Shown here: piece by piece, positions 16,597 through 61,189 of the stretch
Position numbering within the stretch: the first letter of the stretch is position 1
Layout of the letters: the number at the start of each line of letters is the position of its first letter
Source: Roseburia hominis
GTDB taxonomy: Bacteria; Bacillota; Clostridia; Lachnospirales; Lachnospiraceae
NCBI GenBank assembly: GCA_040702975.1
Contig: CP159990.1
Coordinates: 1,550,001 to 1,614,000 of the forward strand
Reading direction: 5' to 3'
Length of the DNA stretch: 64,000 nucleotides
The notes under the pieces: model-generated
Seen by the model: the letters and a program-made list of their open reading frames with translations, nothing else
Database searches by the model: none
What the model was told of the DNA's origin: nothing
Position numbers and translations under genes: made by a program

Positions 16597-16731
16597 TTAC
16601 CGTGTATACCTAAGCGAAGGTCCAGCGGGCCTTGTTTTGGTTGCCAAGCATACCTAAGTGAACGTCCGGTGGACGTTCATCTCGGTTGCCAAGCATACCT
16701 AAGTGAACGTCCAGTGGACGTTCATCTCGGT
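16597..16731 (+). repeat. Three tandem 45-bp palindromic repeat units (site 1)
   Basis: Units 16597-16641, 16642-16686 and 16687-16731 are exactly 45 bp each. The last two are near-identical. They begin TGCCAAGCATACCTAAG, then have a stem TGAACGTCC / GGACGTTCA around a 3-base loop, and end TCTCGGT. The first unit is diverged, but its inner stem (AAGGTCC with GGGCCTT, one wobble) still pairs. The array sits between the nifJ terminator and the tetR promoter. Further units of the same family occur at 25050, 27772, 35286, 35862 and 61091. Confidence 0.93.
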
Positions 16732-16746
16732 CTCATAAAATAGTAC

Positions 16747-16802
16747 TTGACAAAAGCGACACGAGTGTCTTAAAATATAAAAAAGACATTGGTGTCGCTT
16801 TT
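16747..16802 (+). promoter_or_regulatory. tetR promoter with two overlapping operator palindromes
   Basis: TTGACA (16747-16752), an 18-bp spacer and TAAAAT (16771-16776) form a promoter. GACAC-N2-GTGTC (16758-16769) lies in the spacer. A related GACAT-N2-GGTGTC lies at 16785-16796. An 11-bp perfect inverted repeat, AAAAGCGACAC (16752) and GTGTCGCTTTT (16792-16802), encloses both. This is typical of autoregulation by the TetR protein encoded 44 bp downstream. Confidence 0.75.
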
Positions 16803-16845
16803 GAATTATCGAAGATATTGAGAAAAGAATGAAAGTGAGAACAGC

Positions 16846-17433
16846 ATGGGAAATAAAGGAGATGCGACGAGAGAGTATATCAAAGAAAAAGCATATACAT
16901 TATTTGCCGAAAAAGGTTTCAAGGACGTTACGATGAAGGATGTATGTGAAGTGACAGGGCTTAGCCGGGGAGGTCTGTATCGACATTTTGATAGTACAGC
17001 GCAGATATTTGAGGAGATCTTTTTGGAACTGACGGGAAAGACGGAGCAGGATTTTGCAGAGCGAATTGATGCGGGAGAGAATGCCAGGCAGATGCTTGAA
17101 GATATATTGGAGAAATATAAGGAGGAGATTGAGGAGAAGGAGCGGACTCTGACACTTGCGATATATGAGTATTCGCAGGCGGTCAACAGTGAATTCCTGA
17201 TTGAACTCAACCGGACGTCGAAGGTCAAATGGAAGGAATTCATTAAATACGGGGTGGACCAGGGAGAGTTTGTTGATGTCGAGATAGATGCGGTCGTGGA
17301 TTTGATCCTATATGCCTACCAGGGGGCACGAATGTGGAGTAAGATTCTTCCGGTTGACCGCGGAGTGAGCCGGCATATAGTCGATTGCATTTATGGTATG
17401 CTGCTTGAGAAAGGTGAGAAGAAGGAAGAGTAG
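16846..17433 (+). CDS. TetR/AcrR-family transcriptional regulator
   Basis: A 195-aa repressor-type protein. The N-terminal ~50 residues form the TetR helix-turn-helix, with FAEKGFKDVTMKDVCEVTGLSR and RGGLYRHF. The rest is an alpha-helical ligand and dimer domain of no recognisable specificity. The paired operators over its promoter suggest autorepression. No transporter or enzyme lies next to it in the usual arrangement, so its other targets cannot be read from context. The following Uma2 gene could be co-transcribed but is 113 bp away. Confidence 0.9.
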   Translation: MGNKGDATREYIKEKAYTLFAEKGFKDVTMKDVCEVTGLSRGGLYRHFDSTAQIFEEIFLELTGKTEQDFAERIDAGENARQMLEDILEKYKEEIEEKERTLTLAIYEYSQAVNSEFLIELNRTSKVKWKEFIKYGVDQGEFVDVEIDAVVDLILYAYQGARMWSKILPVDRGVSRHIVDCIYGMLLEKGEKKEE

Positions 17434-17513
17434 TCGTTTTTTAGGTACTTTAATTGCCTTACCATACTTCCGCTGTGCTTTTGTAAGAAGGAAGAATAGT
17501 AGTTTTTAGATAC
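17419..17513 (+). repeat. Imperfect 29-30-bp direct repeat, 66 bp apart
   Basis: AAGAAGGAAGAGTAGTCG continuing to TTTTTTAGGTAC (17419-17448) recurs with a few changes at 17485-17513. The first copy contains the last codons and stop of the tetR gene. The second lies in the gap before the Uma2 gene. It looks like a local tandem duplication. Confidence 0.6.
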
Positions 17514-17546
17514 GGAAAGCATACCAGATTATTAAGGAGGAAAGAT

Positions 17547-18323
17547 ATGAGAATAGATGAGATGAAAGAACGATCCATAGAGCTTGGATATACCTATGAG
17601 AAAGTAGCGGAACTCTCCGGAGCACCGGCTGAAGAAGTGGAAAAAGTTATAGAAGATACGGAAAAGTCCTTTGATTATAATACAATGATAGCATTGGGGA
17701 AATTCTTTGATGAGACTTATCCTATGACAGTGCGGGAGAGTTCTCCCCTTTATTGCAATAAAGTTCAGGGAGAATATACTCTGGAAGATTATCTGGCGCT
17801 TCCGGATGACAGACGGGTGGAATTGATAGACGGAGTTTTCTATGATATGTCTGCGCCTACCAGTATCCATCAGTTGATAGGCGGGCAGATATATACACAG
17901 TTAAACAATTATGTGAGCAAGAAAAAGGGGCCGTGCCTGCCATTTATCGCTCCTGTTGATGTGCAATTGGATTGTGATGAGAAGACGATCGTGCAGCCGG
18001 ATGTGATGATCGTATGCGACAGAGAAAAAGTTACCAAGGCGCGTATTTTTGGGGCACCGGATTTTGTAATTGAAGTCTTGTCCAAGTCAACGAAAAAGAA
18101 GGACAGATTGATCAAACTCCAGAAATATAAGATGGCTGGCGTGAGGGAATACTGGATGATCGACCCGGATAAAAGGAATGTGGTAGTTCATGATTTTGAG
18201 AGGGATAAGTCTCCTGTAATCTATGGCTTTGATGCAAAGGTTCCCGTTGGAATATATGGCGGTGAGTGTGAAATCGATATGAGAGAGGTTTATGAAGTGG
18301 TTCGTTTCATTTATGAGAGCTAG
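17547..18323 (+). CDS. Uma2-family (DUF820) restriction-endonuclease-fold protein
   Basis: 258 aa. The C-terminal ~190 residues match the Uma2 family of PD-(D/E)xK nuclease-fold proteins: RVELIDGVFYDM, then QPDVMIV (catalytic Asp), then DFVIEVLSKST (Glu) and a downstream Lys. The N-terminal ~65 residues are an extra helical segment resembling a small helix-turn-helix domain (YTYEKVAELSGAPAEEVEKV). Uma2 genes are numerous in cyanobacteria and scattered in Firmicutes, and their biological role is unsettled. The start is backed by AAGGAGG. Confidence 0.85.
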   Translation: MRIDEMKERSIELGYTYEKVAELSGAPAEEVEKVIEDTEKSFDYNTMIALGKFFDETYPMTVRESSPLYCNKVQGEYTLEDYLALPDDRRVELIDGVFYDMSAPTSIHQLIGGQIYTQLNNYVSKKKGPCLPFIAPVDVQLDCDEKTIVQPDVMIVCDREKVTKARIFGAPDFVIEVLSKSTKKKDRLIKLQKYKMAGVREYWMIDPDKRNVVVHDFERDKSPVIYGFDAKVPVGIYGGECEIDMREVYEVVRFIYES

Positions 18324-18443
18324 TAAAATAGATATGGCAATATAGGAATATAGCGGGAAGGATGGCAGAAAGCAGATTGTTATTGGGCATGGTTTGCGTT
18401 TAACATTTGATATTATGAAATAAAGAGAAAGGAAGAAAAAAGA

Positions 18444-18971
18444 ATGAAAACACCTATATTAGAAACAGAAAGATTGCTTTTAAGACCTATGACTGTCAAT
18501 GATTCCGAGGAGGTCTTTAGGAATTGGGCCAGCGATGCAGAAGTGGCAAAGTTTATGAGATGGAGCACACATGAGAATGTGGAGGTAACGAGGCAGTGGC
18601 TGGAGAGTGAGGAGAAAGAGATAGAAAGTGAGCAGTTGTATGACTGGGGATTTGTGCTGAAAGAGACGGGAGAGTTGATTGGTTCCGGCGGATTAAGCTG
18701 GGTCCAGGAAAAGGGGATGTATGAGCTGGGCTACAATATTATGAGAAAATACTGGAACCAGGGACTCACTACCGAGGCCGCAAAAGAGATTGTGCGGTTC
18801 GGACTGGAAGAATTAAAAGCGGAGAAATTATATAGCTGCCATGCAAAGGAGAATCCGGCTTCCGGAAGGGTGATGGTGAAAGCAGGCTTCCAGTATTGGA
18901 AGGATGCAGTCTATAGTAGTTGGGATCATACGAAGACATATGAGTGCAGGGAATATATTTTGACAAAATAA
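18444..18971 (+). CDS. GNAT-family N-acetyltransferase (RimJ/RimL-like)
   Basis: 175 aa with the pattern of the RimJ/RimL group of acetyltransferases: TERLLLRPM at the N-terminus, GSGGLSW, ELGYNIMRKYWNQGLTTEA (acetyl-CoA loop region) and ENPASGRVMVKAGF. The acceptor (protein N-terminus, antibiotic or small amine) cannot be inferred. A good ribosome binding site (AAGGAAG) precedes the ATG. It stands alone between the Uma2 gene and the lysine-riboswitch transporter. Confidence 0.85.
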   Translation: MKTPILETERLLLRPMTVNDSEEVFRNWASDAEVAKFMRWSTHENVEVTRQWLESEEKEIESEQLYDWGFVLKETGELIGSGGLSWVQEKGMYELGYNIMRKYWNQGLTTEAAKEIVRFGLEELKAEKLYSCHAKENPASGRVMVKAGFQYWKDAVYSSWDHTKTYECREYILTK

Positions 18972-18993
18972 ATCAAGAATATGCAATAAAAGG

Positions 18994-19022
18994 TTGACAT
19001 TTCTATATAAAAATGGTACAAC
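18994..19022 (+). promoter_or_regulatory. Promoter of the lysine-riboswitch transcript
   Basis: A perfect TTGACA (18994-18999), a 17-bp spacer and TACAAC (19017-19022). It lies 22 bp upstream of the lysine aptamer. Confidence 0.6.
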
Positions 19023-19043
19023 AAGTTATATGTGAATATGGAC

Positions 19044-19205
19044 CGGATAGAGGCGCGGGATTCATCAGTACGATATGACATTAAGGATAGGGAAATCTGT
19101 CATATCAGAAAGGGGAGACCGCCGAAGGAATCAGTGTATCCCAAGCTGGTTTCTGGGACGATGCAGAAGATGCAGCGTACTGTCACATTTGTGGAGCGCT
19201 ATCAA
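19044..19205 (+). ncRNA. Lysine riboswitch (L box) aptamer
   Basis: Conserved L-box blocks occur in order: GATAGAGGCGCGG, a downstream AGTA, AAGGGGAG followed by CGCCGAAGG, CTGG, ACTGTCA, and TGGAGCGCTATC closing P1 (GATAG at 19046 pairs with CTATC at 19199-19203). The spacing matches the lysC-type aptamer. A transcription terminator follows, so lysine should switch the downstream gene off. Confidence 0.93.
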
Positions 19206-19220
19206 GATATGCTATGTACA

Positions 19221-19269
19221 GCCATGAATATACCTCCGTGCGGACGATATTCATGGCGTTTTACATTTT
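19221..19269 (+). terminator. Lysine riboswitch expression-platform terminator
   Basis: A perfect 11-bp stem, GCCATGAATAT (19221-19231) with ATATTCATGGC (19247-19257), is followed by a T-rich tail. It lies between the aptamer and the transporter start. This is the arrangement of a riboswitch that terminates transcription when lysine is bound. Confidence 0.88.
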
Positions 19270-19292
19270 AAAGGAAAAGAGAGGATTTACAC

Positions 19293-20912
19293 ATGAAGAC
19301 AAAGGTAAGAAGACTGATGTGGGCTTTCATGGCGATTATATCTGCGGTACTGTGCAGTCCGTTGGTCGCATTTGCGGCTGAGGAAGCCGAAGAGTACGTA
19401 CCTGCCATGTATGCCAGTTTCTGGGCGTTGGTGCCGCCGATCGTAGCGATTGGACTGGCGCTGATCACAAAAGAGGTTTATAGTTCTCTGTTCATTGGAA
19501 TTCTGGTGGGCGGTTTATTCTATTCCGGATTCCAGTTCGAAGGAACGATCACACACATTTTCCAGGATGGAATTATTGGAGTGCTGTCTGATTCATACAA
19601 TGTAGGTATTCTGGTATTCCTGGTAATCCTGGGAACTATGGTATGTATGATGAACAAGGCAGGAGGCTCTGCCGCATTTGGGCGCTGGGCCAGCGAGCAT
19701 ATCAAGAGCCGTGCAGGTGCGCAGCTTGCGACTATCCTGTTGGGCGTTCTGATTTTTATTGATGACTATTTTAACTGTCTTACAGTGGGAAGCGTGATGC
19801 GGCCGGTAACGGATAAGCAGAATGTATCCCGTGCGAAGCTGGCATATTTGATTGATGCTACGGCAGCTCCTGTTTGTATTATCGCACCGATTTCTTCCTG
19901 GGCGGCTGCAGTTACCGGTTTCGTAAAAGGGGAAGACGGATTTTCCATTTTTATCCGTGCGATTCCATATAACTACTATGCAATTCTGACGATTGTCATG
20001 ATGGTTGCCATGGTACTGATGAAATTCGAGTACGGCACCATGAGAACACATGAAGAAAATGCGAAAAAAGGTGATATCTATACTACGCCGGATCGTCCTT
20101 ACGCCAATGCAGAGGAAGATGTCGTTGAGAACGGCAAAGGAAAAGTGATCGATTTGCTGATCCCGATCGTTGCGCTCATTATTTGCTGTGTAATCGGTAT
20201 GATCTATACCGGAGGATTCTTCGATGGAGTAGGATTCGTGGAAGCTTTCTCCGCAAGTGATGCGTCCGTCGGACTTGTACTTGGAAGCTTCTTTGGATTT
20301 ATGATCACAGTCGTTCTCTACATGGTAAGAAGAGTACTCAGCTTCAGCGATATCATGGCCTGTATCCCGGACGGATTCAAGGCGATGGTTCCTGCAATTT
20401 TAATCCTGACTTTTGCATGGACCCTGAAAGCTATGACCGACAGCCTGGGAGCTGCAGAATATGTGGCGGCTATCGTAGAGAGCAGTAAGGGCGGATTCCT
20501 GGCAATCCTGCCGGCAATCATTTTCCTGGTAGGCTGCCTTCTGGCATTCGCGACCGGAACCTCATGGGGAACCTTTGGTATCCTGATCCCGATCGTTGTT
20601 GAGGCGTTCCAGAATACGAATCCTACCATGATGATTATCTCCATCTCAGCATGTATGGCAGGCGCGGTATGTGGAGATCACTGTTCTCCGATTTCGGATA
20701 CGACGATCATGGCTTCTGCGGGAGCACAGAGTAACCATATCAATCATGTAAATACACAGCTTCCGTATGCGGTCACCGCAGCAGCTGTTTCCTTCGTGAC
20801 ATATATCATTGCAGGATTTGTGAGAAACGCATGGATCGTACTTCCAATCGGAATTGTTCTGATGATTGGAACTCTGTTCGTGATTCGCAGTATGGTGCCG
20901 CGGGAGGAATAA
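19293..20912 (+). CDS. NhaC-superfamily antiporter-like transporter, predicted lysine transporter
   Basis: A 539-aa polytopic membrane protein of the Na+/H+ antiporter NhaC superfamily. It has a cleavable-looking or signal-anchor N-terminus ending in an AFA-like site, then about 11-12 hydrophobic segments. Motifs include DDYFNCLTVGSVMRP and GDHCSPISDTTIM, typical of this superfamily. Control by a lysine riboswitch identifies it as the class of NhaC-like genes (called LysW in comparative riboswitch work) predicted to move lysine. The transport function is inference from regulation. Nothing in the protein itself proves lysine specificity. Confidence 0.85.
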   Translation: MKTKVRRLMWAFMAIISAVLCSPLVAFAAEEAEEYVPAMYASFWALVPPIVAIGLALITKEVYSSLFIGILVGGLFYSGFQFEGTITHIFQDGIIGVLSDSYNVGILVFLVILGTMVCMMNKAGGSAAFGRWASEHIKSRAGAQLATILLGVLIFIDDYFNCLTVGSVMRPVTDKQNVSRAKLAYLIDATAAPVCIIAPISSWAAAVTGFVKGEDGFSIFIRAIPYNYYAILTIVMMVAMVLMKFEYGTMRTHEENAKKGDIYTTPDRPYANAEEDVVENGKGKVIDLLIPIVALIICCVIGMIYTGGFFDGVGFVEAFSASDASVGLVLGSFFGFMITVVLYMVRRVLSFSDIMACIPDGFKAMVPAILILTFAWTLKAMTDSLGAAEYVAAIVESSKGGFLAILPAIIFLVGCLLAFATGTSWGTFGILIPIVVEAFQNTNPTMMIISISACMAGAVCGDHCSPISDTTIMASAGAQSNHINHVNTQLPYAVTAAAVSFVTYIIAGFVRNAWIVLPIGIVLMIGTLFVIRSMVPREE

Positions 20913-23858: not shown

Positions 23859-24943
23859 GTAAAATTACAGTTGTAGTTCCATGCTTTAATGAGGAAGAGG
23901 CGCTTCCGGTCTATTATGAGGAAATGTGCCGGATCATGGAACAGATGCGGGAGGAAGAGTTTGAACTCTTGTTCGTGGACGACGGTTCCTCGGACGGGAC
24001 TCTGGAAATTTTGAAAAATATGAACGAGAAGGACAGGCGGTGCCGCTATCTGTCTTTTTCCAGAAATTTTGGAAAAGAAGCGGCGATCTATGCGGGGCTG
24101 CAAAATGCGACCGGCGATTATGTAGCGACGATGGACGTGGATCTTCAGGACCCGCCCGGGCTTCTGCCGGAAATGTACCGCATTTTGACGGAGGAAGAGT
24201 ATGACAGTGTGGCGACGAAGCGTTCCACAAGAACCGGGGAGCCGCGGATCCGTTCTTTCTTGTCAGAGAGCTTTTATAAATTCATCAACCATATTTCAAA
24301 AACAGAGATTGTAAATGGCGCCAGGGATTATCGCCTGATGAAGCGGAAAATGGTGGAGGCGGTCCTTAATATGAGCGAATATAACCGTTTTTCCAAAGGA
24401 ATCTTTGAGTGGGTGGGATTTCGGACCAAATGGCTGGAATTCCAGAACGTGGAGCGGTCTGCGGGGGAGACAAAATGGTCGCTTCGGAAGCTGTTCGTGT
24501 ACTCTTTGGAAGGAATTACCGGATTCTCGGTCGCGCCGCTTTCTCTGGCGTCGGTGGTGGGAGTAGCGTTTTGCCTTCTTTCCTTTTTGATGATCGTGTT
24601 CATCATCGTGCGGACCTGTATCTGGGGAGACCCGGTCTCAGGCTGGCCGTCGCTGGTGTGTATTATATTTATGGTAAGCGGAATTCAGCTTTTTTGTACG
24701 GGAATCGTGGGAGAATACCTGTCAAAAACGTATCTGGAGACGAAGAAAAGACCTATCTTTATTTTGAAGGATTCCAGCGAGGAAAAGAAGGCGGAAGGGA
24801 AGGCAAAAATGTCCCTGATCAAAGGCGGAAAACGAGTGCCGCTGCATGGCCCGCAGGACGAGGAATATATGGGAAAGAATACGATGGAACAACAGGAAAA
24901 ACAGATGGACGAAAGGCCGGATTTGCAATATGAGAGGAAATAA
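23855..24943 (+). CDS. GT2-family dolichyl/undecaprenyl-phosphate glycosyltransferase (GtrB/DPM1-like)
   Basis: 362 aa. The GT-A catalytic domain begins with VVPCFNEEEALPVYYEEM, has DDGSSDGT and DVDLQDPP, and carries the KxxxRDYRLM region. Two C-terminal membrane helices (about 225-300) are followed by a long charged tail. The family moves a sugar from a nucleotide donor to polyprenyl phosphate. With GtrA and YfhO it makes a three-gene set that probably decorates a wall polymer. The donor sugar is unknown. It overlaps yfhO by 14 bp. Confidence 0.9.
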   Translation: MSKITVVVPCFNEEEALPVYYEEMCRIMEQMREEEFELLFVDDGSSDGTLEILKNMNEKDRRCRYLSFSRNFGKEAAIYAGLQNATGDYVATMDVDLQDPPGLLPEMYRILTEEEYDSVATKRSTRTGEPRIRSFLSESFYKFINHISKTEIVNGARDYRLMKRKMVEAVLNMSEYNRFSKGIFEWVGFRTKWLEFQNVERSAGETKWSLRKLFVYSLEGITGFSVAPLSLASVVGVAFCLLSFLMIVFIIVRTCIWGDPVSGWPSLVCIIFMVSGIQLFCTGIVGEYLSKTYLETKKRPIFILKDSSEEKKAEGKAKMSLIKGGKRVPLHGPQDEEYMGKNTMEQQEKQMDERPDLQYERK

Positions 24944-27689
24944 TAAAGAAAGCAGGGGACGGAAAAAGCACGCTATCGAATCAGCCAGGAGTTTCGCGCC
25001 GTATCTGGCTCTGGGGGTGGCGGTCCTGTCCTTCTGCTGGCTCTTTTGCTGCCAAGCATGCCTAAGTGAACGTCCAGTGGACGTTCATCTCGGCTGCCAA
25101 ATGAACCTAAGTGAACGTTCGGTGGATGCTCATCTTGGCCTGGGACAGGTGGTGTTTGGGGCAAAAGTGGACTGGCTTAGCCAGCACAGCGTATTTCCGG
25201 AGTATTTCCGGCAGCAGTTTTATGAGACCGGACAGCTTTTCCCGGAGTTCGCGGCCAATATTGGTGGCGGGCAGAATATATATCATTTTGCGTATTATGG
25301 ATTATATAACCCGATCATTCTGATTTCCTACCTGCTCCCTTTTGTGAAAATGTCGGATTACCTGATGGCGGCACAGATTTTATGCCTGATGGCGGCTGTT
25401 CTTTTGTTTTACCATTGGCTGAGGCGCAGGGGCTTTGAGACGGGGGTCAATCTGGGCTGTTCGCTGATGTTCCTCTTTGCAGGACCGATGATTTTTCATT
25501 CCTATAGTCAGATCATGTTCGTGAATTATATGCCGTTTCTGGTACTCGCGCTTATGGGGGTGGACCGGTATTTTGAATCGGATGGCAGGCTGCTTACGGT
25601 CGGTACATTTTTGATGATCATGACCAGTTTTTATTTTAGTATTGGCGGAATACTGGTTCTGGTGTTGTATGGGGTATATCGATATTTGCAGAAAAAGGAA
25701 GAGGCGGGACTGCGGGTGACGCTTCGGGGCTTTTTGACCGATGGAATTTGCTTTTTGTTTCCTATGCTGACTGCCGTTTTGCTCAGCGGAATCCTGCTGG
25801 TGCCTACGGCCATGGCGCTCATAGGGCAGGGAAGAGGCGGCGCTAAAGGGGTGAGCCTGGGCGAATTATTTCTTCCAGAGCTGTCATGGAACCGGTTTTT
25901 CTATTCGCCTTATGGAATCGGGCTCACCACGCTGGTGCTAGTGGTGCTTCTTACGGGACTGACCTATAGGAATAAGGCGGACAGGGCCTTGTATCTGTGT
26001 ACATTGGGAATTCTCTTAATTCCGGTATTTGCGTGGGCCTTAAACGGAGGACTTTATATTCGCGGCAAAGTCATGATTCCGTTTCTTCCGCTTTTGTGTT
26101 ATATGATAGCGGATTATTTGAAAAGACAGAAGCGAAAAGAAATCTCACTGGCATCCGGGGCGGTTCCCTACCTGCTTGTGGCGTTTCTGATTTTCGTGGG
26201 AAGGCAAAGTGGGAAAATAGCGGCCGGGCGGAAGCTGCTTGTGGCAGATTGCATGATCATGTTGTTTTGTTATGGCATATTTTGGAAAAGAAGAAAGGCA
26301 AAGATTCTGTTAGTTCCGGCAGTGCTGTTTTTGACGGTATTTAATCTTGTGTGTCACACGCAGGCGGGAAGAATATTGGAGACGGAATTCTATGAGAAAA
26401 TCACCGACGAACAGATTGGAGCGATAATCGCGCAGGTGGAAGAGGAGGAAGAGGGCTTCTACCGGACAGAACAGTTGGGAACGGATCGGGAAAATGAAGC
26501 GAATCTGAACCGGGTGTGGGATATGGGCCAATACATTTCATCTGTTTATTCCTCTACATATCATGCGGGATATGCAGATTTCCGGAAAAATGTATTTGGT
26601 CTGGAGGAGCCCTTCCGCAATATTTTAATGCAGTCGGCTTCCAAAAATCCGATATTTCAGCGTTTTATGGGAGTGAAATATGTCGTTTCGGAAAATCCGG
26701 TGCCGGGGTATGAAGTTTATTTTGACGGTGGAAAACAGAAGGTCTATGTGAGTAGCGAGGCCCTTCCCGTTGCTTATGCGACCGACCGGGTGATGTCCGG
26801 GGAGGAGTATGAGAAGCTGGAGTTTCCCTATAACCAGTTGGCGTTGCTTGAATATGCCGTGGTGGATGAGGAAAATCAGGGGAATGTGGCGTGTGATGAG
26901 AAGGAGATAACCGGGAAGAATGGGGGAAAGAAGGCGGGGAAGAATGAGGAAAAATGTTTTCTGGATACGTGTCAAGTAGAGCGGATTAGTGTCGGCCTGT
27001 CAGCAAAGGAAGATACGAAAAAGTATGATAAAAATAACTCTGTAAGTGAAACAGAAAATGGATATAGTATCAATATCAAACAGAAAATCCAAGCAAAGCT
27101 ATCCCTTCCTGGAACCATAAATAAGGGAGAAATCCTGTTCCTGCGTTTCCGGGTAAAAAACAGAAATACTTCTAAGGATGTAGCCATTTGGGTAAATGGC
27201 GTGCGCAATAAATTGAGTGCAGGAAGTCACATTTACTATAACGAAAATGAAACCTTTACTTATGCCATTTTGCCGGAAGTAGAGGAAAATGCGTTGGAGG
27301 TCGTGTTGGGAGAAGGAGATTACGAGATTGCAGATGTGGAATGCCTGATCGGGAAAATGAGCGGGACCAGGCAGGAATTATGCCAGTCCGAATTTGTGCC
27401 GGATCAGATGCGGACGAAAGGGAATCAGATAGCCGGGGAAATTGAAGTTTTGGATGATGGATACTTTATTACTTCCATTCCTTATGATGAAGGGTTTGAA
27501 GTGCGGGTAGATGGGAAAGCTGTCTCCTATATGAAGGTGAATACGGCATTTCTTGGATTTTCAATCGAAAAAGGGGAGCATAAGATTGAACTCATTTATC
27601 ATGCACCGGGAGCGACAGCAGGGAAAATCGTATCGGTCGTAGGCATTTTATTGTTTCTTTTTGTCTGTATCTCATCTAAAAAGGGGTGA
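24930..27689 (+). CDS. YfhO-family polytopic membrane protein carrying a 30-residue repeat insertion
   Basis: 919 aa from the ATG at 24930; a longer upstream reading frame is only overlap with the glycosyltransferase. It has about 12 membrane helices and a large C-terminal extracellular domain. It belongs to the YfhO family, GT-C-like proteins that glycosylate lipoteichoic acid in other Firmicutes. The motifs VDWLSQHSVFPEYFRQQFY and GGGQNIYHFAYYGLYNP follow the first helix. Between that helix and this motif, residues 41-70 are two copies of the 15-residue repeat peptide (CQACLSERPVDVHLG and CQMNLSERSVDAHLG) encoded by the 45-bp element. The insertion leaves the frame intact. Confidence 0.9.
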   Translation: MRGNNKESRGRKKHAIESARSFAPYLALGVAVLSFCWLFCCQACLSERPVDVHLGCQMNLSERSVDAHLGLGQVVFGAKVDWLSQHSVFPEYFRQQFYETGQLFPEFAANIGGGQNIYHFAYYGLYNPIILISYLLPFVKMSDYLMAAQILCLMAAVLLFYHWLRRRGFETGVNLGCSLMFLFAGPMIFHSYSQIMFVNYMPFLVLALMGVDRYFESDGRLLTVGTFLMIMTSFYFSIGGILVLVLYGVYRYLQKKEEAGLRVTLRGFLTDGICFLFPMLTAVLLSGILLVPTAMALIGQGRGGAKGVSLGELFLPELSWNRFFYSPYGIGLTTLVLVVLLTGLTYRNKADRALYLCTLGILLIPVFAWALNGGLYIRGKVMIPFLPLLCYMIADYLKRQKRKEISLASGAVPYLLVAFLIFVGRQSGKIAAGRKLLVADCMIMLFCYGIFWKRRKAKILLVPAVLFLTVFNLVCHTQAGRILETEFYEKITDEQIGAIIAQVEEEEEGFYRTEQLGTDRENEANLNRVWDMGQYISSVYSSTYHAGYADFRKNVFGLEEPFRNILMQSASKNPIFQRFMGVKYVVSENPVPGYEVYFDGGKQKVYVSSEALPVAYATDRVMSGEEYEKLEFPYNQLALLEYAVVDEENQGNVACDEKEITGKNGGKKAGKNEEKCFLDTCQVERISVGLSAKEDTKKYDKNNSVSETENGYSINIKQKIQAKLSLPGTINKGEILFLRFRVKNRNTSKDVAIWVNGVRNKLSAGSHIYYNENETFTYAILPEVEENALEVVLGEGDYEIADVECLIGKMSGTRQELCQSEFVPDQMRTKGNQIAGEIEVLDDGYFITSIPYDEGFEVRVDGKAVSYMKVNTAFLGFSIEKGEHKIELIYHAPGATAGKIVSVVGILLFLFVCISSKKG
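25050..25139 (+). repeat. Two tandem 45-bp palindromic repeat units inside yfhO (site 2)
   Basis: Units 25050-25094 and 25095-25139 start exactly on a codon boundary. The first has the perfect TGAACGTCC/GGACGTTCA stem. The second has drifted to one mismatch and two wobbles. The preceding bases are TCTTTTGC, again a T-run. The reading frame used is the only forward frame of the unit without a stop. Confidence 0.93.
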
Positions 27690-27767: not shown

Positions 27768-27771
27768 CGGT

Positions 27772-27816
27772 TGCCAAGTATACCTGAAATAAGGTCCAGT
27801 GGATCTTGTTATGGGA
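27772..27816 (+). repeat. Single diverged 45-bp palindromic repeat unit (site 3)
   Basis: It begins TGCCAAGTATACCTGA and keeps the length and position of the hairpin. ATAAGGTCC pairs with GGATCTTGT using two wobbles around loop AGT. It lies just after the yfhO terminator in the gap before the peptidase gene. Confidence 0.8.
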
Positions 27817-33835: not shown

Positions 33836-35227
33836 ATGGTAGAAAAGACAATGGACAAAATTGTAGCTTTGGCAAAAAACAGAGGCTTTGTATATCCGGG
33901 GTCTGAAATCTACGGGGGACTTGCAAATACGTGGGATTACGGTAATCTTGGGGTAGAACTCAAGAATAACGTAAAGAAAGCCTGGTGGAAGAAGTTCGTT
34001 CAGGAGAATCCTTACAATGTAGGCGTCGACTGTGCGATTCTTATGAATCCCCAGACATGGGTTGCATCCGGTCACCTGGGAGGATTCAGTGATCCGCTTA
34101 TGGATTGTAAAGAGTGCCATGAGCGTTTCCGGGCAGATAAATTGATTGAAGATTATTCCAAAGAGCATGGAATCGAGCTGGAAGGAAGCATCGATGGCTG
34201 GACGCATCAGCAGATGGCTGATTTCGTAAGAGAGCACGAGATTCCGTGTCCGACTTGTGGTAAACATAATTTTACAGATATTCGTGAATTTAACCTGATG
34301 TTCAAGACATTCCAGGGCGTGACCGAGGACGCAAAGAACGTTGTATATCTTCGTCCGGAGACTGCACAGGGAATTTTCGTAAACTTTAAGAATGTACAGC
34401 GTACTTCCAGAAAGAAACTTCCGTTTGGTATCTGCCAGGTTGGTAAATCCTTCCGTAACGAGATTACACCGGGTAACTTCACATTCCGTACCCGTGAGTT
34501 CGAGCAGATGGAGCTGGAGTTCTTCTGCAAACCGGATACCGATCTTGAGTGGTTCGATTACTGGAAGAGCTACTGCCTGAACTGGCTGTTCACCCTGGGA
34601 CTTAAGAAAGAAGAAGTTCGTTACAGAGATCATGATAAAGAGGAACTTTCCTTCTACAGCAAGGCTACGACTGACGTAGAATTCCTGTTCCCATTTGGAT
34701 GGGGCGAGCTGTGGGGCATCGCAGACAGAACCGATTATGACCTGACTCAGCATCAGAATACGTCAGGACAGGATATGACCTACTTTGATGATGAGACCAA
34801 AGAGAAATATATCCCGTATGTAATCGAACCGTCACTTGGAGCTGACCGTATGGTACTTGCGTTCCTCTGCGGCGCTTACGATGAGGAAGAATTAGAGGGT
34901 GGAGACAAACGTACTGTTCTTCATTTCCACCCGGCTCTTGCTCCAGTCAAGATTGGTGTGCTTCCGCTTTCCAAGAAGCTGAACGAGGGAGCTGAGAAGA
35001 TCTATACCGAGCTTAGCAAATACTACAATTGTGAATTTGATGACCGTGGAAATATCGGTAAGAGATATCGTCGTCAGGACGAGATCGGAACTCCGTTCTG
35101 TGTAACGTATGACTTCGAGTCTGAGGAAGATGGCGCAGTGACCGTGCGTGACCGTGATACGATGGAGCAGGAAAGAGTTAAAATTGAAGATCTGAAGGCT
35201 TACTTTGAGAAGAAATTTGAGTGGTAA
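33836..35227 (+). CDS. glyS: Glycyl-tRNA synthetase (single-chain type)
   Basis: A class II synthetase of the alpha2 (archaeal/eukaryal-like) type, 463 aa, unlike the two-subunit enzyme of many bacteria. Visible features are [18 protein letters not shown] (motif 1 region), [33 protein letters not shown] (motif 2) and [12 protein letters not shown] (motif 3). A C-terminal anticodon-binding domain has [20 protein letters not shown]. Codon use is biased, as in the highly expressed nifJ. A terminator follows. Confidence 0.96.
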
Positions 35228-35245: not shown

Positions 35246-35283
35246 CTGCTGTTCGTGGAAAAATCCATGGGCAGCAGTTTTTT
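35246..35283 (+). terminator. Rho-independent terminator after glyS
   Basis: CTGCTG (35246) and CAGCAG (35272-35277) close a 14-bp stem that includes several G-T pairs, followed by six T. A 45-bp repeat unit begins three bases after the T-run. Confidence 0.88.
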
Positions 35284-35285
35284 GC

Positions 35286-35330
35286 TGCCAAGCATGCCTA
35301 AGTGAACGTCCGGTGGACGTTCATCTCGGC
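35286..35330 (+). repeat. Single 45-bp palindromic repeat unit (site 4)
   Basis: A consensus unit: TGCCAAGCATGCCTAAG, a perfect stem TGAACGTCC/GGACGTTCA with loop GGT, and tail TCTCGGC. It sits directly downstream of the glyS terminator. Confidence 0.93.
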
Positions 35331-35416: not shown

Positions 35417-35510
35417 CTATACATATTATTGTGTTTGCGTTTAAAGATTTTTACAAATTGGCAGGAATTAATCCTGCAAGATGAGTGCTTCCAGAAAGGA
35501 GGACTGCACC

Positions 35511-36050
35511 ATGTTAAAGATTATATTTGGAGAAACTGCAGGGGCAGTTTATCATCCCCCTACCTATTTTGACAACCGATACGAAGACGAGTGGATTACT
35601 GATCCGCTGTCGATTGAAATGATAAAAGACATTGATAACTCAGATGTGATCAGTGCCCACTTAATTCAAAGCCCGGTACTTGGCGCAATACCTGTCAAGG
35701 ATATTTCCGGAGGTGTAAAAACGTTGATTTTGATGGCATTTGATGAAAGCGGAAAAGTGTTCAATGCGTCTGCCTGTGGAGACAACTGTGCCAAGTGGAT
35801 CGTGAAGCTGGGTAGGCAGAAAGATTTGACCATCAATCTACATCATGTGATGGATTTTAGCTGCCAAGCATGCCCAAGTGAAGGTCCGGTGGACCTTCAT
35901 CTCGGCTGCCAAGCATGCCTAAGTGAAGATCCGGTGGATTTTCATCTTGGCAAGGCCATTGACTTTGAGGCCCTGATTGTGAATACTGGTAAGACTGTTC
36001 ATAGCTATGAAGAGTATTTGAAAGAAGCTTTGACCATAAAGGAGCGTTGA
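35511..36050 (+). CDS. DUF4869-like protein carrying a 30-residue repeat insertion
   Basis: 179 aa from the ATG at 35511, which follows a perfect AGGAGG. The pattern (LKIIFGE, DNRYEDEWITDPLSIEMIKDID, SPVLGAI, SGGVKTLILM, CGDNCAKWIVKLG, and IVNTGKTVHSYEEY near the end) agrees with what I recall of DUF4869 proteins of gut Firmicutes, which are about 150 aa. Residues 118-147 are two tandem copies of the repeat peptide, CQACPSEGPVDLHLG and CQACLSEDPVDFHLG. They interrupt an otherwise continuous region just before the conserved C-terminus. Function unknown. It is followed after 3 bp by a P-loop ATPase. Confidence 0.75.
   Translation: MLKIIFGETAGAVYHPPTYFDNRYEDEWITDPLSIEMIKDIDNSDVISAHLIQSPVLGAIPVKDISGGVKTLILMAFDESGKVFNASACGDNCAKWIVKLGRQKDLTINLHHVMDFSCQACPSEGPVDLHLGCQACLSEDPVDFHLGKAIDFEALIVNTGKTVHSYEEYLKEALTIKER
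35862..35951 (+). repeat. Two tandem 45-bp palindromic repeat units inside the DUF4869-like gene (site 5)
   Basis: Units 35862-35906 and 35907-35951 start on a codon boundary, in the same frame as in yfhO. Stems are TGAAGGTCC/GGACCTTCA (a paired C-G to G-C change relative to the consensus) and TGAAGATCC/GGATTTTCA (one wobble). The bases before them are GATTTTAGC. Confidence 0.93.
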
Positions 36051-46132: not shown

Positions 46133-46153
46133 ACAATCAATAGTTGTATGAAG

Positions 46154-46372
46154 AACCTGTGAGATACCACCATATTGTACAAGGGGTACAATACGCAAGG
46201 ATGGAGCCGAAGGGGCAGCGCAAAAACTCTCAGGCAAAAGGAACAGGTTTTGACAACACTCTGGAGAACAATATGATTGCATCGTGAAGAGCAATGGCAT
46301 TGTACCGAAGAAGTAATCCATCTGGCGAGGCGCGCAGCCAGTTGGGTAATCTTTCAGGTAAAAGGACAGAGG
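46154..46372 (+). ncRNA. Tandem glycine riboswitch
   Basis: Aptamer 1 (46154-46249) is closed by AACCTGT/ACAGGTT and has GGAGCCGAAGGGGCA followed by CTCTCAGGCAAAAGGA. Aptamer 2 (about 46253-46372) has CTCTGGAGAA and CTTTCAGGTAAAAGGACAGA. The tandem layout upstream of glyA and gcvT is classical. Glycine binding is expected to turn the glycine-cleavage operon on by preventing the terminator that follows. Confidence 0.95.
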
Positions 46373-54702: not shown

Positions 54703-54718
54703 GGAAGGAAATTACATA

Positions 54719-56709: not shown

Positions 56710-57243
56710 ATGACAAATGAAGAAAAAAAGGAACAAACAGAGAACATGAGCCGGGTAAATCACATTCTCTTTCATCCTTATTACCAGGAATGTCTGGCGA
56801 AGAACCAAAAGGCGGAGGAGGGCAGGATTTTCTGCGGACATGATATGGTCCATTTCCTTAATGTGGCGCGGATTGCGTATATCTTTTCTATGGAACGGCA
56901 ATCTGGGATTCCCAAAGAGTCTGTTTATGCTGCGGCCCTGCTTCATGATATTGGGAAGTGGCAGCAGTACGAATTTGGGATTCCACACGATAAAGCCAGT
57001 GCCCAGATTGCAGAACCAATTTTGAGCGAGGCTGGATTTGAGAGAAAGGAACGGGAAATGATTTGCGCGGTGATTCTCGGGCATCGCAGCGAAGGGGCAT
57101 GTGAGCAGGTCCCGGGGGAGGCGAAAATGCTGGCGCAGATTCTGTACGATGCGGACAAGGCATCGCGGAGCTGCTTTTCCTGTGAGGCTAAGGCGGAATG
57201 CGACTGGGGACAGGAGAAGAAGAATTTGCAGCTTATGGTATGA
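56710..57243 (+). CDS. HD-domain hydrolase in the folate cluster
   Basis: 177 aa from ATG 56710; a TTG at 56683 is the other option. Metal-binding residues of the HD fold: HDMVHFLNVARIAY (His), LLHDIGKW (HD) and a distal YDADKA (Asp). Position between folE and folP is common in clostridia. A role as the missing dihydroneopterin-triphosphate phosphatase is conceivable but unproven. Confidence 0.75.
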   Translation: MTNEEKKEQTENMSRVNHILFHPYYQECLAKNQKAEEGRIFCGHDMVHFLNVARIAYIFSMERQSGIPKESVYAAALLHDIGKWQQYEFGIPHDKASAQIAEPILSEAGFERKEREMICAVILGHRSEGACEQVPGEAKMLAQILYDADKASRSCFSCEAKAECDWGQEKKNLQLMV

Positions 57244-57353
57244 GGTTGGCGGTCAGGCATACTTTGGGAAGGTGCAGGCTTTTACCGATGTGGTGGTGTG
57301 TCTGAGTGTGAAATATGTTGCAGCAATGAGGAGACAGAACAGGAGAGAGTTGT

Positions 57354-58163
57354 ATGTTAAGAGTAGGAAACAGAGAATTTGATACGGACCACCATACCTA
57401 TATTATGGGAATCTTGAATGTGACCCCGGATTCCTTTTCGGATGGTGGAAAATTTAATCATTATGATGCGGCCATGCGTCATGCAGGGGAACTGATCGAT
57501 GGCGGGACGGACATTCTGGATATCGGCGGCGAATCTACCCGGCCCGGACACCAGCAGATCTCCGTGCAGGAAGAAATCGAACGGGTGGTGCCGGTCATCG
57601 AGGCAGTGAAGAAGAACTTTGACGTGCCGGTATCCATTGATACGTATAAAAGTGCGGTGGCCCGGGAGGCGCTGCGCGCAGGTGCGGATCTGGTAAATGA
57701 TATCTGGGGATTTTTGTATGATGAGAACATGGCGGCACTGGTCAGGGAGTACGATGTGGCGTGTTGCCTGATGCATAACCGGAAGGAAGCGGTGTACGAG
57801 AATTTTCTGGAGGATATGTACCAGGATTTGGAGAAATGTATTCGGGCAGCGAAGAAGGCGGGGATCGAGGACAACAAGATCATGCTTGATCCGGGAGTGG
57901 GCTTTGGAAAGACTTATGAGATGAACCTTGATGTGATGAAGCATCTGGATTATTTTAACGGCTTAGGATATCCGATGCTACTTGGAACTTCAAGAAAATC
58001 GATGATCGGCCTGACACTGGGTCTTCCAGCAGATGAGCGGGAGGAAGGCACACTTGTGACAACGGTGATGGCAGTGCAGAGTGGCTATGGATTCGTTCGG
58101 GTGCATGACGCTGAAAAAAACCGGCGTGCCATTCAGATGACAGAAGCGATTTTGAAACGTTAA
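57354..58163 (+). CDS. folP: Dihydropteroate synthase
   Basis: Condenses pterin pyrophosphate with p-aminobenzoate; the sulfonamide target. 269 aa. GILNVTPDSFSDGG, DIGGESTRPG, VNDIWG and the C-terminal RVHDAEKNRRA are all present. The 110 bp between the HD gene and folP contain no gene. Confidence 0.96.
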   Translation: MLRVGNREFDTDHHTYIMGILNVTPDSFSDGGKFNHYDAAMRHAGELIDGGTDILDIGGESTRPGHQQISVQEEIERVVPVIEAVKKNFDVPVSIDTYKSAVAREALRAGADLVNDIWGFLYDENMAALVREYDVACCLMHNRKEAVYENFLEDMYQDLEKCIRAAKKAGIEDNKIMLDPGVGFGKTYEMNLDVMKHLDYFNGLGYPMLLGTSRKSMIGLTLGLPADEREEGTLVTTVMAVQSGYGFVRVHDAEKNRRAIQMTEAILKR

Positions 58164-58244
58164 GATAGAATAGTAAAAGTGATTTGGCATAGCGTGTGAA
58201 TAGAAAAACATAGAATTTGCCGGAATATGGGGGAGAAAAAGAGC

Positions 58245-59066
58245 ATGAGTTTGGATAAGATAAAAGTCAAGAATCTGGAAGTATTTGCAAACCACGGAGT
58301 GTATCCGGAAGAAACAAAATTAGGACAAAAGTTTCTGATATCTTGCGTTTTGCATGTGGACACCAGAACGGCCGGGAAGACGGACAGTCTGGAAGAGTCT
58401 GTAAATTACGGGACCATTTCCCATCTGATCAAGGAGAAAATGGAGAAGGATACCTATCAGCTCATCGAAGCGGTGGCGGAGCATTTGGCGGAGGAAATCC
58501 TGCTTTTTGATGAGAAGATCAGGAAGGTCGACCTGGAAGTGAAAAAACCCTGGGCGCCGGTGGGACTGCCTCTTGAGACGGTGGCAGTGGAAGTGAGCCG
58601 GAGCTGGCATGTGGCGTATGTCGCGTTCGGGTCCAATATGGGAGAGAAAAGAGAGTATATTGAAAAAGCAATCGAGGGGATAAGGCATACCGAAAAATGC
58701 CGGGTGGAAAAGGTGTCATCGATTCTGGAAACGGAGCCCTATGGCGTGACGGAGCAGGACGTATTTTTAAATGGCGTGTTAAAACTGCAAACGCTTCTGA
58801 CTCCGCAGGAATTGCTTGACAGGCTTCACGAACTGGAACAGGAGGCGGGCCGGAAAAGAGTGATACGCTGGGGACCGAGGACGCTGGATCTGGATATCGT
58901 GTTGTATGATGATCTCATTTTGGAAGAGGACGATCTTTGTATTCCGCATGTAGATATGCAGAACCGGGATTTCGTGCTGAGACCGATGGCGGAGATCGCG
59001 CCGTATAAGCGCCACCCGGTATATGGAAAGACGATGACGGAGATGCTGACAGAGCTTTTGAAATAA
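58245..59066 (+). CDS. folBK: Fused dihydroneopterin aldolase and HPPK
   Basis: A 273-aa bifunctional enzyme. Residues 1-~120 are FolB (KVKNLEVFANHGVYPEE, and ESVNYGTISHLI). Residues ~125-270 are FolK (VAYVAFGSNMGEKREYIE, RWGPRTLDLDIVLYDD). Together they do two consecutive steps from dihydroneopterin to the substrate of FolP. The ATG at 58245 is 8 bases after GGGGGAG; an ATG at 58227 overlaps that site and is unlikely. Confidence 0.94.
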   Translation: MSLDKIKVKNLEVFANHGVYPEETKLGQKFLISCVLHVDTRTAGKTDSLEESVNYGTISHLIKEKMEKDTYQLIEAVAEHLAEEILLFDEKIRKVDLEVKKPWAPVGLPLETVAVEVSRSWHVAYVAFGSNMGEKREYIEKAIEGIRHTEKCRVEKVSSILETEPYGVTEQDVFLNGVLKLQTLLTPQELLDRLHELEQEAGRKRVIRWGPRTLDLDIVLYDDLILEEDDLCIPHVDMQNRDFVLRPMAEIAPYKRHPVYGKTMTEMLTELLK

Positions 59067-59158
59067 TTGAGGGCAGGAGAGGAGTTATGGGGTAACAGAT
59101 TAAGAATTTATTATGCATCTGTTAAAAACATTTTATGAAAAGTTTATGCCGGGAAGAA

Positions 59159-59187
59159 TTGATTTACAAGGGGAAATTGAGTATACT
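59159..59187 (+). promoter_or_regulatory. Promoter of the M18 aminopeptidase gene
   Basis: TTGATT (59159-59164), a 17-bp spacer and TATACT (59182-59187). The early transcript carries AGTGCGGTGT, a 10-mer also found at the same position after the ppdK promoter. Confidence 0.6.
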
Positions 59188-59239
59188 AAAAACAGTGCGG
59201 TGTAGTACACCAAAAACTGGTAAAGGAGAGGAGACAGAG

Positions 59240-60637
59240 ATGTCAGTAAAAAATGTATGGAACACCTATAGCGAGGCTGAACTCGCGGAACTTCATGAGA
59301 TTAATGAAAAGTATAAAAAATGCCTGGATCTGGGGAAGACAGAGCGTGAGTGCGTGAAGGTTGCAGTGGAGATGGCAAAAGAGGCCGGATACCGCGATGT
59401 AAAAGAAGTGATCGCAGAGGGCAAGCCGCTGGAGAAAGGCGCAAAAGTATATGCGGTATGCATGGAGAAGATGATTGTTATGTTCCGCATGGGAGAAGAG
59501 CCGCTGTCCAGTGGTATGAATATTCTGGGCGCGCATATTGACTCCCCGCGTATCGATATTAAGCAGAACCCGCTTTATGAGAATGAAGGCTTCGCTTATC
59601 TGGATACCCATTACTATGGCGGAATCAAGAAATATCAGTGGGTAACGGGACCGCTTGCAATTCACGGCGTCGTTGCGAAACCGGACGGAACCATCGTGAA
59701 TATCAGCATTGGTGAGAAAGAAGAGGATCCGGTTTTCGTTATCACCGACCTGTTAGTACATCTGGCAGCGGATCAGCTTAAGAAAGAGGCAAGCGTAGTG
59801 ATCGAAGGCGAGAAACTGGACCTTCTGATCGGAAACTGCCCGCTGGAAGAAAGTGAAGAACTGAACAAAGATCAGAAAGAGGTACTGAAGGCCAATGTGC
59901 TGAAGATCCTGAAAGAATCTTACGGAATCGAGGAGGCTGATTTCACTTCTGCTGAGCTTGAGATCGTTCCGGCAGGAAAGGCAAGAGACCTTGGATTTGA
60001 CCGCAGCATGATCCTTGCATATGGACAGGATGACAGAATCTGTGCATTTACCTCTCTGTTCGCTATGCTTGACGTAGAGGAGTCCAGACGGACAAGCTGC
60101 TGTATCCTGGTAGATAAAGAAGAGATCGGAAGCGTGGGAGCGACCGGTATGCATTCCCGTTTCTTTGAAAATATTGTAGCTGAGCTGGTAGCACTTAACG
60201 AGGGTGAGTCTGATCTGAAGGTTCGCCGTGCAATGGCAAATTCCTGCATGCTTTCTTCTGACGTTAGCGCAGGTTATGATCCGATGTTTGCTGAAGCATT
60301 TGAAAAACGCAGTGCTGCATTCCTGACCAAAGGTCTTTCCTTCAACAAATTCACGGGAAGCAGAGGAAAGAACGGCTCTAATGATGCCAATGCAGAATAT
60401 CTCGGACGTCTGCGCAAGGTAATGGACGACGCAGGAGTTGCTTATCAGTTCGCTGAGCTTGGTAAGGTAGACGTCGGCGGCGGCGGAACAATCGCGTACA
60501 TCATGGCGAACTACGGCATGGAAGTAATCGACAGCGGCGTGGCAGTTCTGAATATGCACGCTCCGTATGAAGTCAGCAGTAAGGCAGACGTATATGAGGC
60601 AGTAAAAGGATATCGCGCATTCCTGAAGAATATGTAA
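59240..60637 (+). CDS. M18-family aminopeptidase
   Basis: 465 aa from ATG 59240, placed behind AAAGGAGAGG; upstream in-frame codons to 59135 lie in the promoter region. A zinc exopeptidase of the aspartyl aminopeptidase type: ILGAHIDSPRIDIK, LVDKEEIGSVGATGMHS and the C-terminal GVAVLNMHAPYEVSSKAD contain the expected His, Asp and Glu ligands. Codon use is biased toward high expression. Its own promoter and terminator make it a single-gene unit. Confidence 0.93.
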   Translation: MSVKNVWNTYSEAELAELHEINEKYKKCLDLGKTERECVKVAVEMAKEAGYRDVKEVIAEGKPLEKGAKVYAVCMEKMIVMFRMGEEPLSSGMNILGAHIDSPRIDIKQNPLYENEGFAYLDTHYYGGIKKYQWVTGPLAIHGVVAKPDGTIVNISIGEKEEDPVFVITDLLVHLAADQLKKEASVVIEGEKLDLLIGNCPLEESEELNKDQKEVLKANVLKILKESYGIEEADFTSAELEIVPAGKARDLGFDRSMILAYGQDDRICAFTSLFAMLDVEESRRTSCCILVDKEEIGSVGATGMHSRFFENIVAELVALNEGESDLKVRRAMANSCMLSSDVSAGYDPMFAEAFEKRSAAFLTKGLSFNKFTGSRGKNGSNDANAEYLGRLRKVMDDAGVAYQFAELGKVDVGGGGTIAYIMANYGMEVIDSGVAVLNMHAPYEVSSKADVYEAVKGYRAFLKNM

Positions 60638-60657
60638 GATTGAAAGTAAATAATCTG

Positions 60658-60693
60658 GAAGAGGACAGGCTGAAAAATAGCCTGTTCTCTTCT
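60658..60693 (+). terminator. Terminator after the aminopeptidase
   Basis: AAGAGGACAGGCT pairs with AGCCTGTTCTCTT around a short A-rich loop (60659-60692). The T-rich end overlaps the -35 of the next promoter. Confidence 0.85.
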
Positions 60694-60721
60694 TTACATA
60701 TGTGGAGAGTTTTGGTATAGT
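60693..60721 (+). promoter_or_regulatory. Promoter of the ABC-F leader transcript
   Basis: TTTACA (60693-60698), a 17-bp spacer and TATAGT (60716-60721). The predicted start is near 60728, about 477 bases before the ABC-F coding region. Confidence 0.7.
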
Positions 60722-60769
60722 AAAGGTGTTGTAAGATTTATAGAATCATATTGGAAATGAGGTGAAAGG

Positions 60770-60790
60770 ATGTATACAGTTTCTTGTTAA
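60770..60790 (+). CDS. Candidate leader peptide MYTVSC
   Basis: A six-codon ORF at the start of the ABC-F leader transcript, with GGTGAAAGG just upstream. Short translated ORFs in this position let stalled ribosomes control downstream hairpins in other ABC-F leaders. Too short for any sequence-based proof. Confidence 0.4.
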   Translation: MYTVSC

Positions 60791-60963
60791 TGACAGGGGC
60801 AGCAAAATAAAGTTGTTTGAATTGGAGTAATCTATAGATGACGAACTCCTTTATTTTACTATGCCCGGGCAGGAAAGTGATACATTCTTTGGAAGATCCA
60901 TATATCGTATCCGGTTTAAGATATCCCGAAGGGACCTGTGCATAGGTTTCTGCGTTTACCGCA

Positions 60964-61017
60964 GAAATGTGAGCGCTATAATCCCCCGGAGGGGCCACGA
61001 TTCGAAGAATCATGGTA
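60964..61017 (+). repeat. 54-bp repeat flanking the ABC-F gene (left copy)
   Basis: Starts GAAATG, includes CGCTA, CGGAGGG and GATTC, and ends ATGGTA. It matches 62789-62842 at 43 of 54 positions with no gaps and in the same orientation. It lies within the structured leader. Confidence 0.7.
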
Positions 61018-61090
61018 TACTGCGCGAAAGGCGCAGCCGGTGTCGAGGTTGTGTGCTGCAGGAAGGTATTTCTTTTCTGCGGCATTTTTT

Positions 61091-61189
61091 TGCCAAGCAT
61101 GCCTAAGTGAACGTTCATCGCGGTTGCCAAGCACGCCTAAGTGAACGTCCAGTGGACGTTCATCTCGGTTGTTAAGTACGTTTAAGTAA
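61091..61189 (+). repeat. 45-bp palindromic repeat array before the ABC-F gene (site 6)
   Basis: Unit a (61091-61124) has lost 11 bp of the hairpin tip, between two ACGT copies. Unit b (61125-61169) is a full consensus unit. Unit c is a decayed 5' part (TGTTAAGTACGTTTAAG) running into the AAAGGAGG ribosome binding site of the ABC-F gene. The array starts on the T-run of the leader terminator. Confidence 0.88.

Follow-up and report, generated by a model that had tools for sequence, protein, structure and literature searches.

We analysed a 64-kb stretch of the Roseburia hominis chromosome (the window; bases 1,550,001–1,614,000 of a single-contig 4.26-Mb genome) that carries a family of short palindromic units, most of them 45 bp long. 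The original prediction, made from the window's sequence alone, listed units at six places, ascribed a conserved 9-bp stem to each and gave tandem units an exact 45-bp period. Units do occur at all six places, on the + strand throughout, but the array borders shifted slightly once they were set at the junctions. Defined in this way, the arrays span 16597–16730 (three units), 25049–25138 (two), 27771–27814 (one), 35285–35329 (one), 35861–35950 (two) and 61090–61189 (three), and their members are as follows.

16597–16640, + strand: array A, unit 1, decayed 44-bp type, directly after a terminator T-tract
16641–16685, + strand: array A, unit 2, intact, 45 bp
16686–16730, + strand: array A, unit 3, intact, 45 bp
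25049–25093, + strand: in-frame unit 1 within a YfhO-type membrane protein gene (24846–27689)
25094–25138, + strand: in-frame unit 2 within the same YfhO-type gene (24846–27689), partly decayed
27771–27814, + strand: lone decayed unit of the 44-bp type, 3′ of the YfhO gene and behind a T-rich stretch
35246–35284, + strand: terminator-like hairpin and T-tract, the insertion site of the 35285 unit
35285–35329, + strand: lone intact unit directly 3′ of the hairpin and TTTTTTG, downstream of a class II tRNA synthetase gene (33836–35227)
35861–35905, + strand: in-frame unit 1 within a DUF4869 protein gene (35481–36050), compensated stem AAGGTCC/GGACCTT
35906–35950, + strand: unit 2 within the DUF4869 protein gene (35481–36050), stem AAGATCC/GGATTTT
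61090–61123, + strand: shortened unit of 34 bp, lacking 11 hairpin bases (the tip), after a T run
61124–61168, + strand: intact unit
61169–61189, + strand: third unit, decayed, left part only (read by eye)

Seven window sequences match the stem TGAACGTCC-NNN-GGACGTTCA at up to three mismatches, five of the seven exactly, compared with an average of 0.02 in shuffled sequences. The 9-bp stem is conserved in the main type but not in several decayed, shortened or stem-changed units: stem changes are present in 25094–25138 and in both units of the 35861 pair, and 16597–16640 and 27771–27814 are decayed members of a 44-bp sister type that reads CCTGAAATAAGGTCC...GGACCTTATTTTGG elsewhere in the genome. 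Because 44-bp, shortened and decayed units are also present, only neighbouring full-length units of the main type keep an exact 45-bp period. The tip-less 34-bp units (61090–61123 in the window; 1688095, 1942418 and 3297679 in the genome) have lost the tip between short repeats and look like recurrent deletion products of the palindrome. Antisense palindrome matches in the window and genome scans were rejected as separate copies, being identical hairpins read backwards.

The unit is abundant outside the window. A 26-base pattern from its left part had 138 genome matches at up to three mismatches (individual places were given for the first of these), whereas the reversed pattern had none, and a covariance model gave at least 162 matches at E ≤ 0.01. 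Covariance-model counts here and below are lower bounds because only the best-ranked first-look candidates per genome were scored (150 in this genome, 150 in each genus relative and 52 in each other family genome). The sample fetched for individual copies comprised 79 stretches (545 kb, 12.8% of the genome), mostly around listed copies, with six arbitrary 12-kb blocks. In this sample nhmmer (E < 0.05) found 164 units, 4 of them in the arbitrary blocks, forming 112 arrays: 69 single, 35 double, 7 triple and 1 quadruple. Seven fetched copies have one identical 45-bp sequence, and the spread therefore looks recent or continuing. Adjacent full-length units within arrays are 94% identical, compared with 88% for random pairs (n = 20), which makes some local duplication likely. 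Two arrays about 1 kb apart, at genome positions 1540477 and 1541516, have identical upstream bases (atcgtatacataactta), which hints at local duplication of DNA that included the unit.

The main type consists of YTGCCAWGCATR, CCTRAG, a 9-bp stem with a 3-nt loop, and TCTCGG, and the 44-bp sister type has the end GGACCTTATTTTGG; the two are mixed in some arrays, with exact junctions. Foot and right end change together between the types, CCTRAG occurring with TCTCGG and CCTGAA with TTTTGG; among the 101 leftmost units the foot is CCTAAG or CCTGAG in 72, CCTGAA in 11 and another sequence in 18. The hairpin is preserved through compensated changes. In an alignment of 49 units, drawn from 59 diverse units (of 92 distinct) after ten were omitted by hand, some of them aberrant, 93.3% of hairpin cells are paired, and 34 cells are changed on both sides compared with 8.6 in shuffles, a value reached in 0 of 500; such double changes are also much rarer when the pairing is slid. 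Consistent with this, 884 of 935 cells (94.5%) are paired across all 85 distinct full 45-mers, with 32 double changes compared with 6.8 (0 of 500 shuffles). The left linker can itself fold as a mini-hairpin, TGC-CAW-GCA, with standard or wobble pairs kept in 124 of 128 units. In two genomic units, 3621771–3621815 and 987939–987983, the stem arms match different subfamilies, and these units look like chimeras.

The sequences flanking the arrays share a landing site. Upstream of the leftmost units (n = 101) the logo shows T(−6) 83, T(−5) 72 or C(−5) 21, T(−4) 82, T(−3) 68, little preference at −2 and G(−1) 76, so that the insertion point reads T-Y-T-T-N-G|Y, and a pyrimidine (C or T) directly follows the array in 83 of 84 cases. 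Right and left Y bases agree weakly (a right C accompanies a left C in 6 of 11 and a left T in 14 of 63), and a 1-bp duplication is thus neither shown nor excluded. Immediately before this T-run lies, in most cases, a terminator-like hairpin. Across the 94 arrays used in this test, a hairpin of −10 kcal/mol or better directly preceded the T-run in 41 of 61 intergenic arrays with an upstream gene in the same direction, compared with 27 of 271 control TYTTNGY sites (p = 1e-19), and hairpins of −6 or better preceded 9 of 14 in-gene arrays compared with 70 of 400 sampled in-gene control sites (p = 2e-4). The landing rule is well supported in this genome. At its right end the unit itself, with the hairpin followed by TCTCGG, TTTTGG or TTTTTTAG and then Y, resembles this target. 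Units can thus themselves be landed on, and head-to-tail arrays would follow from this.

Orientation follows replication, not transcription, and this is also well supported. The sign of the GC skew switches near 0.3 and 2.6 Mb, and the hairpin strand reads in the fork direction in 94 of 105 arrays scoring at least 25 bits (100 of 112 unfiltered; the filter removes 7 of the 112 arrays). Because predicted genes are also co-biased with replication (456 of 527), we relied on symmetric gene contexts. At 25 bits or more, gaps between convergent genes hold 15 arrays in the fork direction to 1 against it and gaps between divergent genes 6 to 1 (together p = 7e-5); between two leading-strand genes 52 arrays are sense and 6 antisense, compared with 0 and 4 between two lagging-strand genes (p = 4e-4). 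Without the bit filter the counts are 15:2, 6:1, 56/6 and 0/4, respectively. From fork geometry, the unit's top strand would lie on the lagging-strand template. This combination of landing site and strand is shared with bacterial-C group II introns, which, according to PMC8919778, go in immediately downstream of rho-independent terminators and favour the lagging-strand template. The units might accordingly be spread by a group IIC intron reverse transcriptase (RT), or a related enzyme, that copies a short structured RNA into terminator sites, and the unit's target does show both features. We regard this as unlikely: at 45 bp the unit is too short for a ribozyme and protein, it matched no Rfam family, intron families among them, either in the window or across 276 kb of loci that mostly bear units, and these loci contain no group II intron (introns and RT were not searched for elsewhere in the genome). 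Neither the conserved left linker TTGCCAWGCATR nor the exactness of the G|Y joint would be explained by copying through an intron RT.

In-frame entry into genes, which the original prediction likened to the palindromic elements of Rickettsia and Wolbachia, holds for some copies but not for most: 11 arrays lie sense and 4 antisense within predicted genes, and 97 of 112 are intergenic. One of the 11 sense arrays is weak (14.4 bits) and two (1257027 and 4169099) possibly lie before the true start. All 11 read in the frame CQAYLSERPVDVHLG, and the consensus has a single stop-free sense frame; the common frame is not independent evidence for selection, because out-of-frame copies would break the open reading frame (ORF) and be counted as intergenic. 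In MtaA, two units form an exact 30-residue insert that is missing from the 11 homologues aligned (of 119 listed), with the joint VDLS[30]TGRA here compared with VDLN|AGRA or alike in homologues, three full-length ones being 90–91% identical, and without visible target duplication. A close MtaA homologue carries the name Bariatricus sp. The insert (residues 119–148) is modelled as a low-confidence loop in a weak model (mean pLDDT 63.5, 12 sequences). Two further units occupy the SfsA–MutY linker and are missing from all seven genus relatives by match coordinates, with the joint read in two. SfsA and MutY are fused in one protein here (genome 3821319–3823169, − strand), and in the genus relatives, too, both lie within a single long open frame, which lacks the unit insert. 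The amino-terminal part of FolC also holds two units, absent from the 10 nearest of 35 loci, although a few neighbouring residues vary in length as well; the nearest named relative is from Coprococcus comes (60%). For unit 27771 there is no comparable empty site, because relatives lack that stretch, and around unit 35285 the intergenic sequence of the relatives has diverged too far to place one to the base.

A search of other Lachnospiraceae, which had been proposed with the initial description, returned diverged cousins in the family, but the close pattern only in this genome. None of the seven genus relatives had the 26-base pattern (up to three mismatches), and of 397 family genomes the 396 others lacked a 38-base pattern; a combined pattern run on 392 Clostridia genomes matched only this genome and one family member. 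With the covariance model (E ≤ 0.01), cousins numbered at least 3, 1, 3, 7, 1, 0 and 8 in the seven genus relatives G001 to G007, respectively, several of these matches being a hairpin only or both strands of one hairpin. In G007, several 24-nt matches (loci L189, L195 and L201) span the main hairpin without the left linker and are possibly another hairpin family of that genome. In a separate sample, at least 8 of 119 other Lachnospiraceae genomes had cousins at E ≤ 1e-4. Of 10 loci fetched from other genera, 9 had a readable unit start (the exception being L218, in G055), and in all nine the unit follows a hairpin of −10.7 or better and a T-run. Across genera the stem changes while the left linker and the tip TCCRGTGGA of the hairpin remain similar, and head-to-tail 42-bp units also occur in G004 and G143. 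Exact patterns had no match in genome-contig and viral-contig collections, nor did blastn find any among plasmids and phages, collections that may omit records near this genome; no paper on this repeat was among those listed by literature searches.

We considered whether the units only look mobile and are instead kept for a cellular role, such as terminator back-up, formation of mRNA 3′ ends, or gyrase or nucleoid binding. Their position directly downstream of terminators and a stem conserved through compensated changes would fit such a role. The exact in-frame insertion in MtaA and those in SfsA–MutY and FolC do not, and neither do an orientation set by replication rather than transcription and the lack of close copies in the seven genus relatives and 396 other family genomes; we therefore consider this explanation very unlikely. 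Copies at more than 100 places, whole units added at MtaA and the compensated stem point instead to mobility, as read from sequence. We favour, by a modest degree of confidence, a reading in which the unit is a non-autonomous mobile DNA hairpin, similar to repetitive extragenic palindromes (REPs), that moves as a single strand into the lagging-strand template after a hairpin and T-tract. The interpretation first offered for the window is borne out for some copies in its in-frame analogy, but it had missed the landing at terminators, the replication-linked orientation and the cousins in Lachnospiraceae.

In the mechanism that we envisage, the element would fold as a single DNA strand and move at the replication fork. 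A trans-acting enzyme would cleave on the 3′ side of 'hairpin, T-rich stretch and G', at the element end and also at a chromosomal terminator, and would join the two. By analogy, the mover is most likely a Y1/HUH-type enzyme, now absent or broken in this genome, which is our leading guess; such an enzyme has been proposed for REPs and shown for IS200/IS605 elements. In-gene copies would survive only where the stop-free frame is in use and the protein tolerates the insert.

Several observations weigh against a mobile hairpin of this kind, foremost the failure to find a mover. All Y1_Tnp matches in the genome come from a single broken locus, whose surrounding 4 kb contain no unit; G055 has covariance-model matches but no Y1 match; and 34 Y1 loci (95 kb, from this genome, the genus and the 8 other unit-bearing genera) contain no unit at E < 0.05. 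At the landing site, a strong hairpin is not obligatory, as arrays whose upstream gene runs in the opposite direction have one of −10 in only 5 of 19 cases, and by the identical test the same-genus cousin loci lack a −10 hairpin in 5 of 5 (best −8.3), although for two of these five (L181 and L182) the start used was incorrect or internal, and L181, by eye, follows a hairpin and T-run. A test of guide pairing failed, target base −5 not following unit foot base 18, and an extra 1–12 base pair in the left mini-hairpin is not significant (p = 0.07). Most of the fetched stretches were picked for holding copies, arrays are possibly not fully independent, and the gene calls are codon-score ORFs predicted in the analysis itself. 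The missing mover would be accounted for if no dedicated enzyme existed and units arose by long template switching at forks stalled on terminator hairpins, with T-tracts serving as microhomology on return. Such switching would also explain the hairpin and T-tract targets, the lagging-strand bias, the whole-unit steps and chimera-like units such as 3621771–3621815. It leaves unexplained why the left linker and the tip TCCRGTGGA stay similar across genera despite stem change, and why the G|Y joint is sharp on both sides; we see little likelihood in it.

Around the mover question, Y1 matches occur in three of the seven genus relatives and in seven of the eight other unit-bearing genera, and the best unit scores near Y1 loci are E 0.051 (L207) and 0.29 (L241). 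The broken locus of this genome is an IS200/IS605-type transposase (L031; 3717846–3718213) with two in-frame TGA codons and a second match in another frame. Among 55 predicted genes between close arrays, whose first 60 residues were read by eye and not searched against a family library, one has an HUH motif and none is transposase-like. A REPtron with a REP-associated tyrosine transposase (RAYT) was rejected, as no unit at E < 0.05 lies within about 1.5 kb of the 34 Y1 loci. Two identities that would have undercut the idea of a new element also fell away: the unit is not a known IS end, there being no clear unit near any examined Y1-transposase locus and none in the 4 kb at the broken IS200-like one, and it is not a CRISPR repeat, since units abut without spacers. 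A known Rfam RNA was rejected in the same way, with no unit match in the window or in the 276 kb of mostly unit-bearing loci.

Among the closest known systems, REPs of the GTAG super-family are short imperfect palindromes in many copies, mostly extragenic, and proposed single-strand movers. The units resemble them in being short, many-copy palindromes that are mostly extragenic and downstream of genes, with some in genes (PMC3733652, PMC6006769). They differ in lacking GTAG or GTGG at the foot (0 of 101 leftmost units) and in forming head-to-tail groups instead of inverted pairs: 43 of 112 arrays are 2–4 head-to-tail units, grouped by strand, and inverted neighbours within 100 bp amount to two pairs, one with a weak 17.9-bit partner. 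A further difference concerns RAYT flanking, the hallmark of REP systems according to PMC6006769: no units at E < 0.05 flank the Y1 locus of the own genome or any of the 34 Y1 loci, and the units thus lack this feature. For CGTC-tagged REPs, including Rickettsia RPE-4 and RPE-6 and Neisseria dRS3, no dedicated transposase is known; they have intragenic copies, and their dimers or groups add 20–30 residues (PMC3733652). Intragenic copies occur here too, and no Y1 gene with units was found (other enzyme classes were not searched genome-wide). The units differ from CGTC-tagged REPs in lacking a CGTC (TGTC/CCTC) terminal tag, the ends being YTGCC and mostly CTCGG or TTTTGG, and in a loop of 3 nt rather than 4–5, the absence of a CCA tail and head-to-tail rather than head-to-head order (PMC3733652).

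Two other comparisons are instructive. With the palindromic elements RPE-1 and WPE of Rickettsia and Wolbachia the units share in-frame entry into genes, as in the exact MtaA insert, but here only 15 of 112 arrays lie within predicted genes. RPE-1 is also longer than the 45-bp unit. IS200/IS605 elements insert without duplication, 3′ of a fixed short sequence. According to PMC6006769, IS608 and ISDra2 of this group insert into the lagging-strand template and recognise hairpin ends. Judged from sequence, unit orientation and the MtaA insert would agree with lagging-strand insertion without duplication. The unit differs in being gene-free (no TnpA) with one main hairpin. As to guide bases, its foot and right end pair internally and target bases do not co-vary with the foot.

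In our view this is a real family of REP-like mobile hairpins that lacks a REPtron and whose landing rule is unusually clear. A bolder proposal, which we put forward tentatively and hold to be rather doubtful, is that it represents a new orphan class of mobile hairpins in Lachnospiraceae for which any single-stranded intrinsic terminator would be a landing site. The element's 3′ end would mimic a terminator (a hairpin and T-rich tail), making end and target interchangeable for one strand-transfer enzyme that does not flank the units as a RAYT does. With the units, the mobile bacterial palindromes would gain a Firmicutes family that has a clear rule of terminator hairpin, T-tract, G|Y and lagging-strand template. 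The units also raise an answerable question, namely which enzyme can move a hairpin of 45 bp if no REP transposase is found to adjoin it. Because some copies sit in conserved enzymes (FolC, MtaA and SfsA–MutY), they also offer a natural test of protein tolerance to inserts. Apart from the units, the window contains two riboswitches, for lysine (19040–19209) and glycine (46148–46255).

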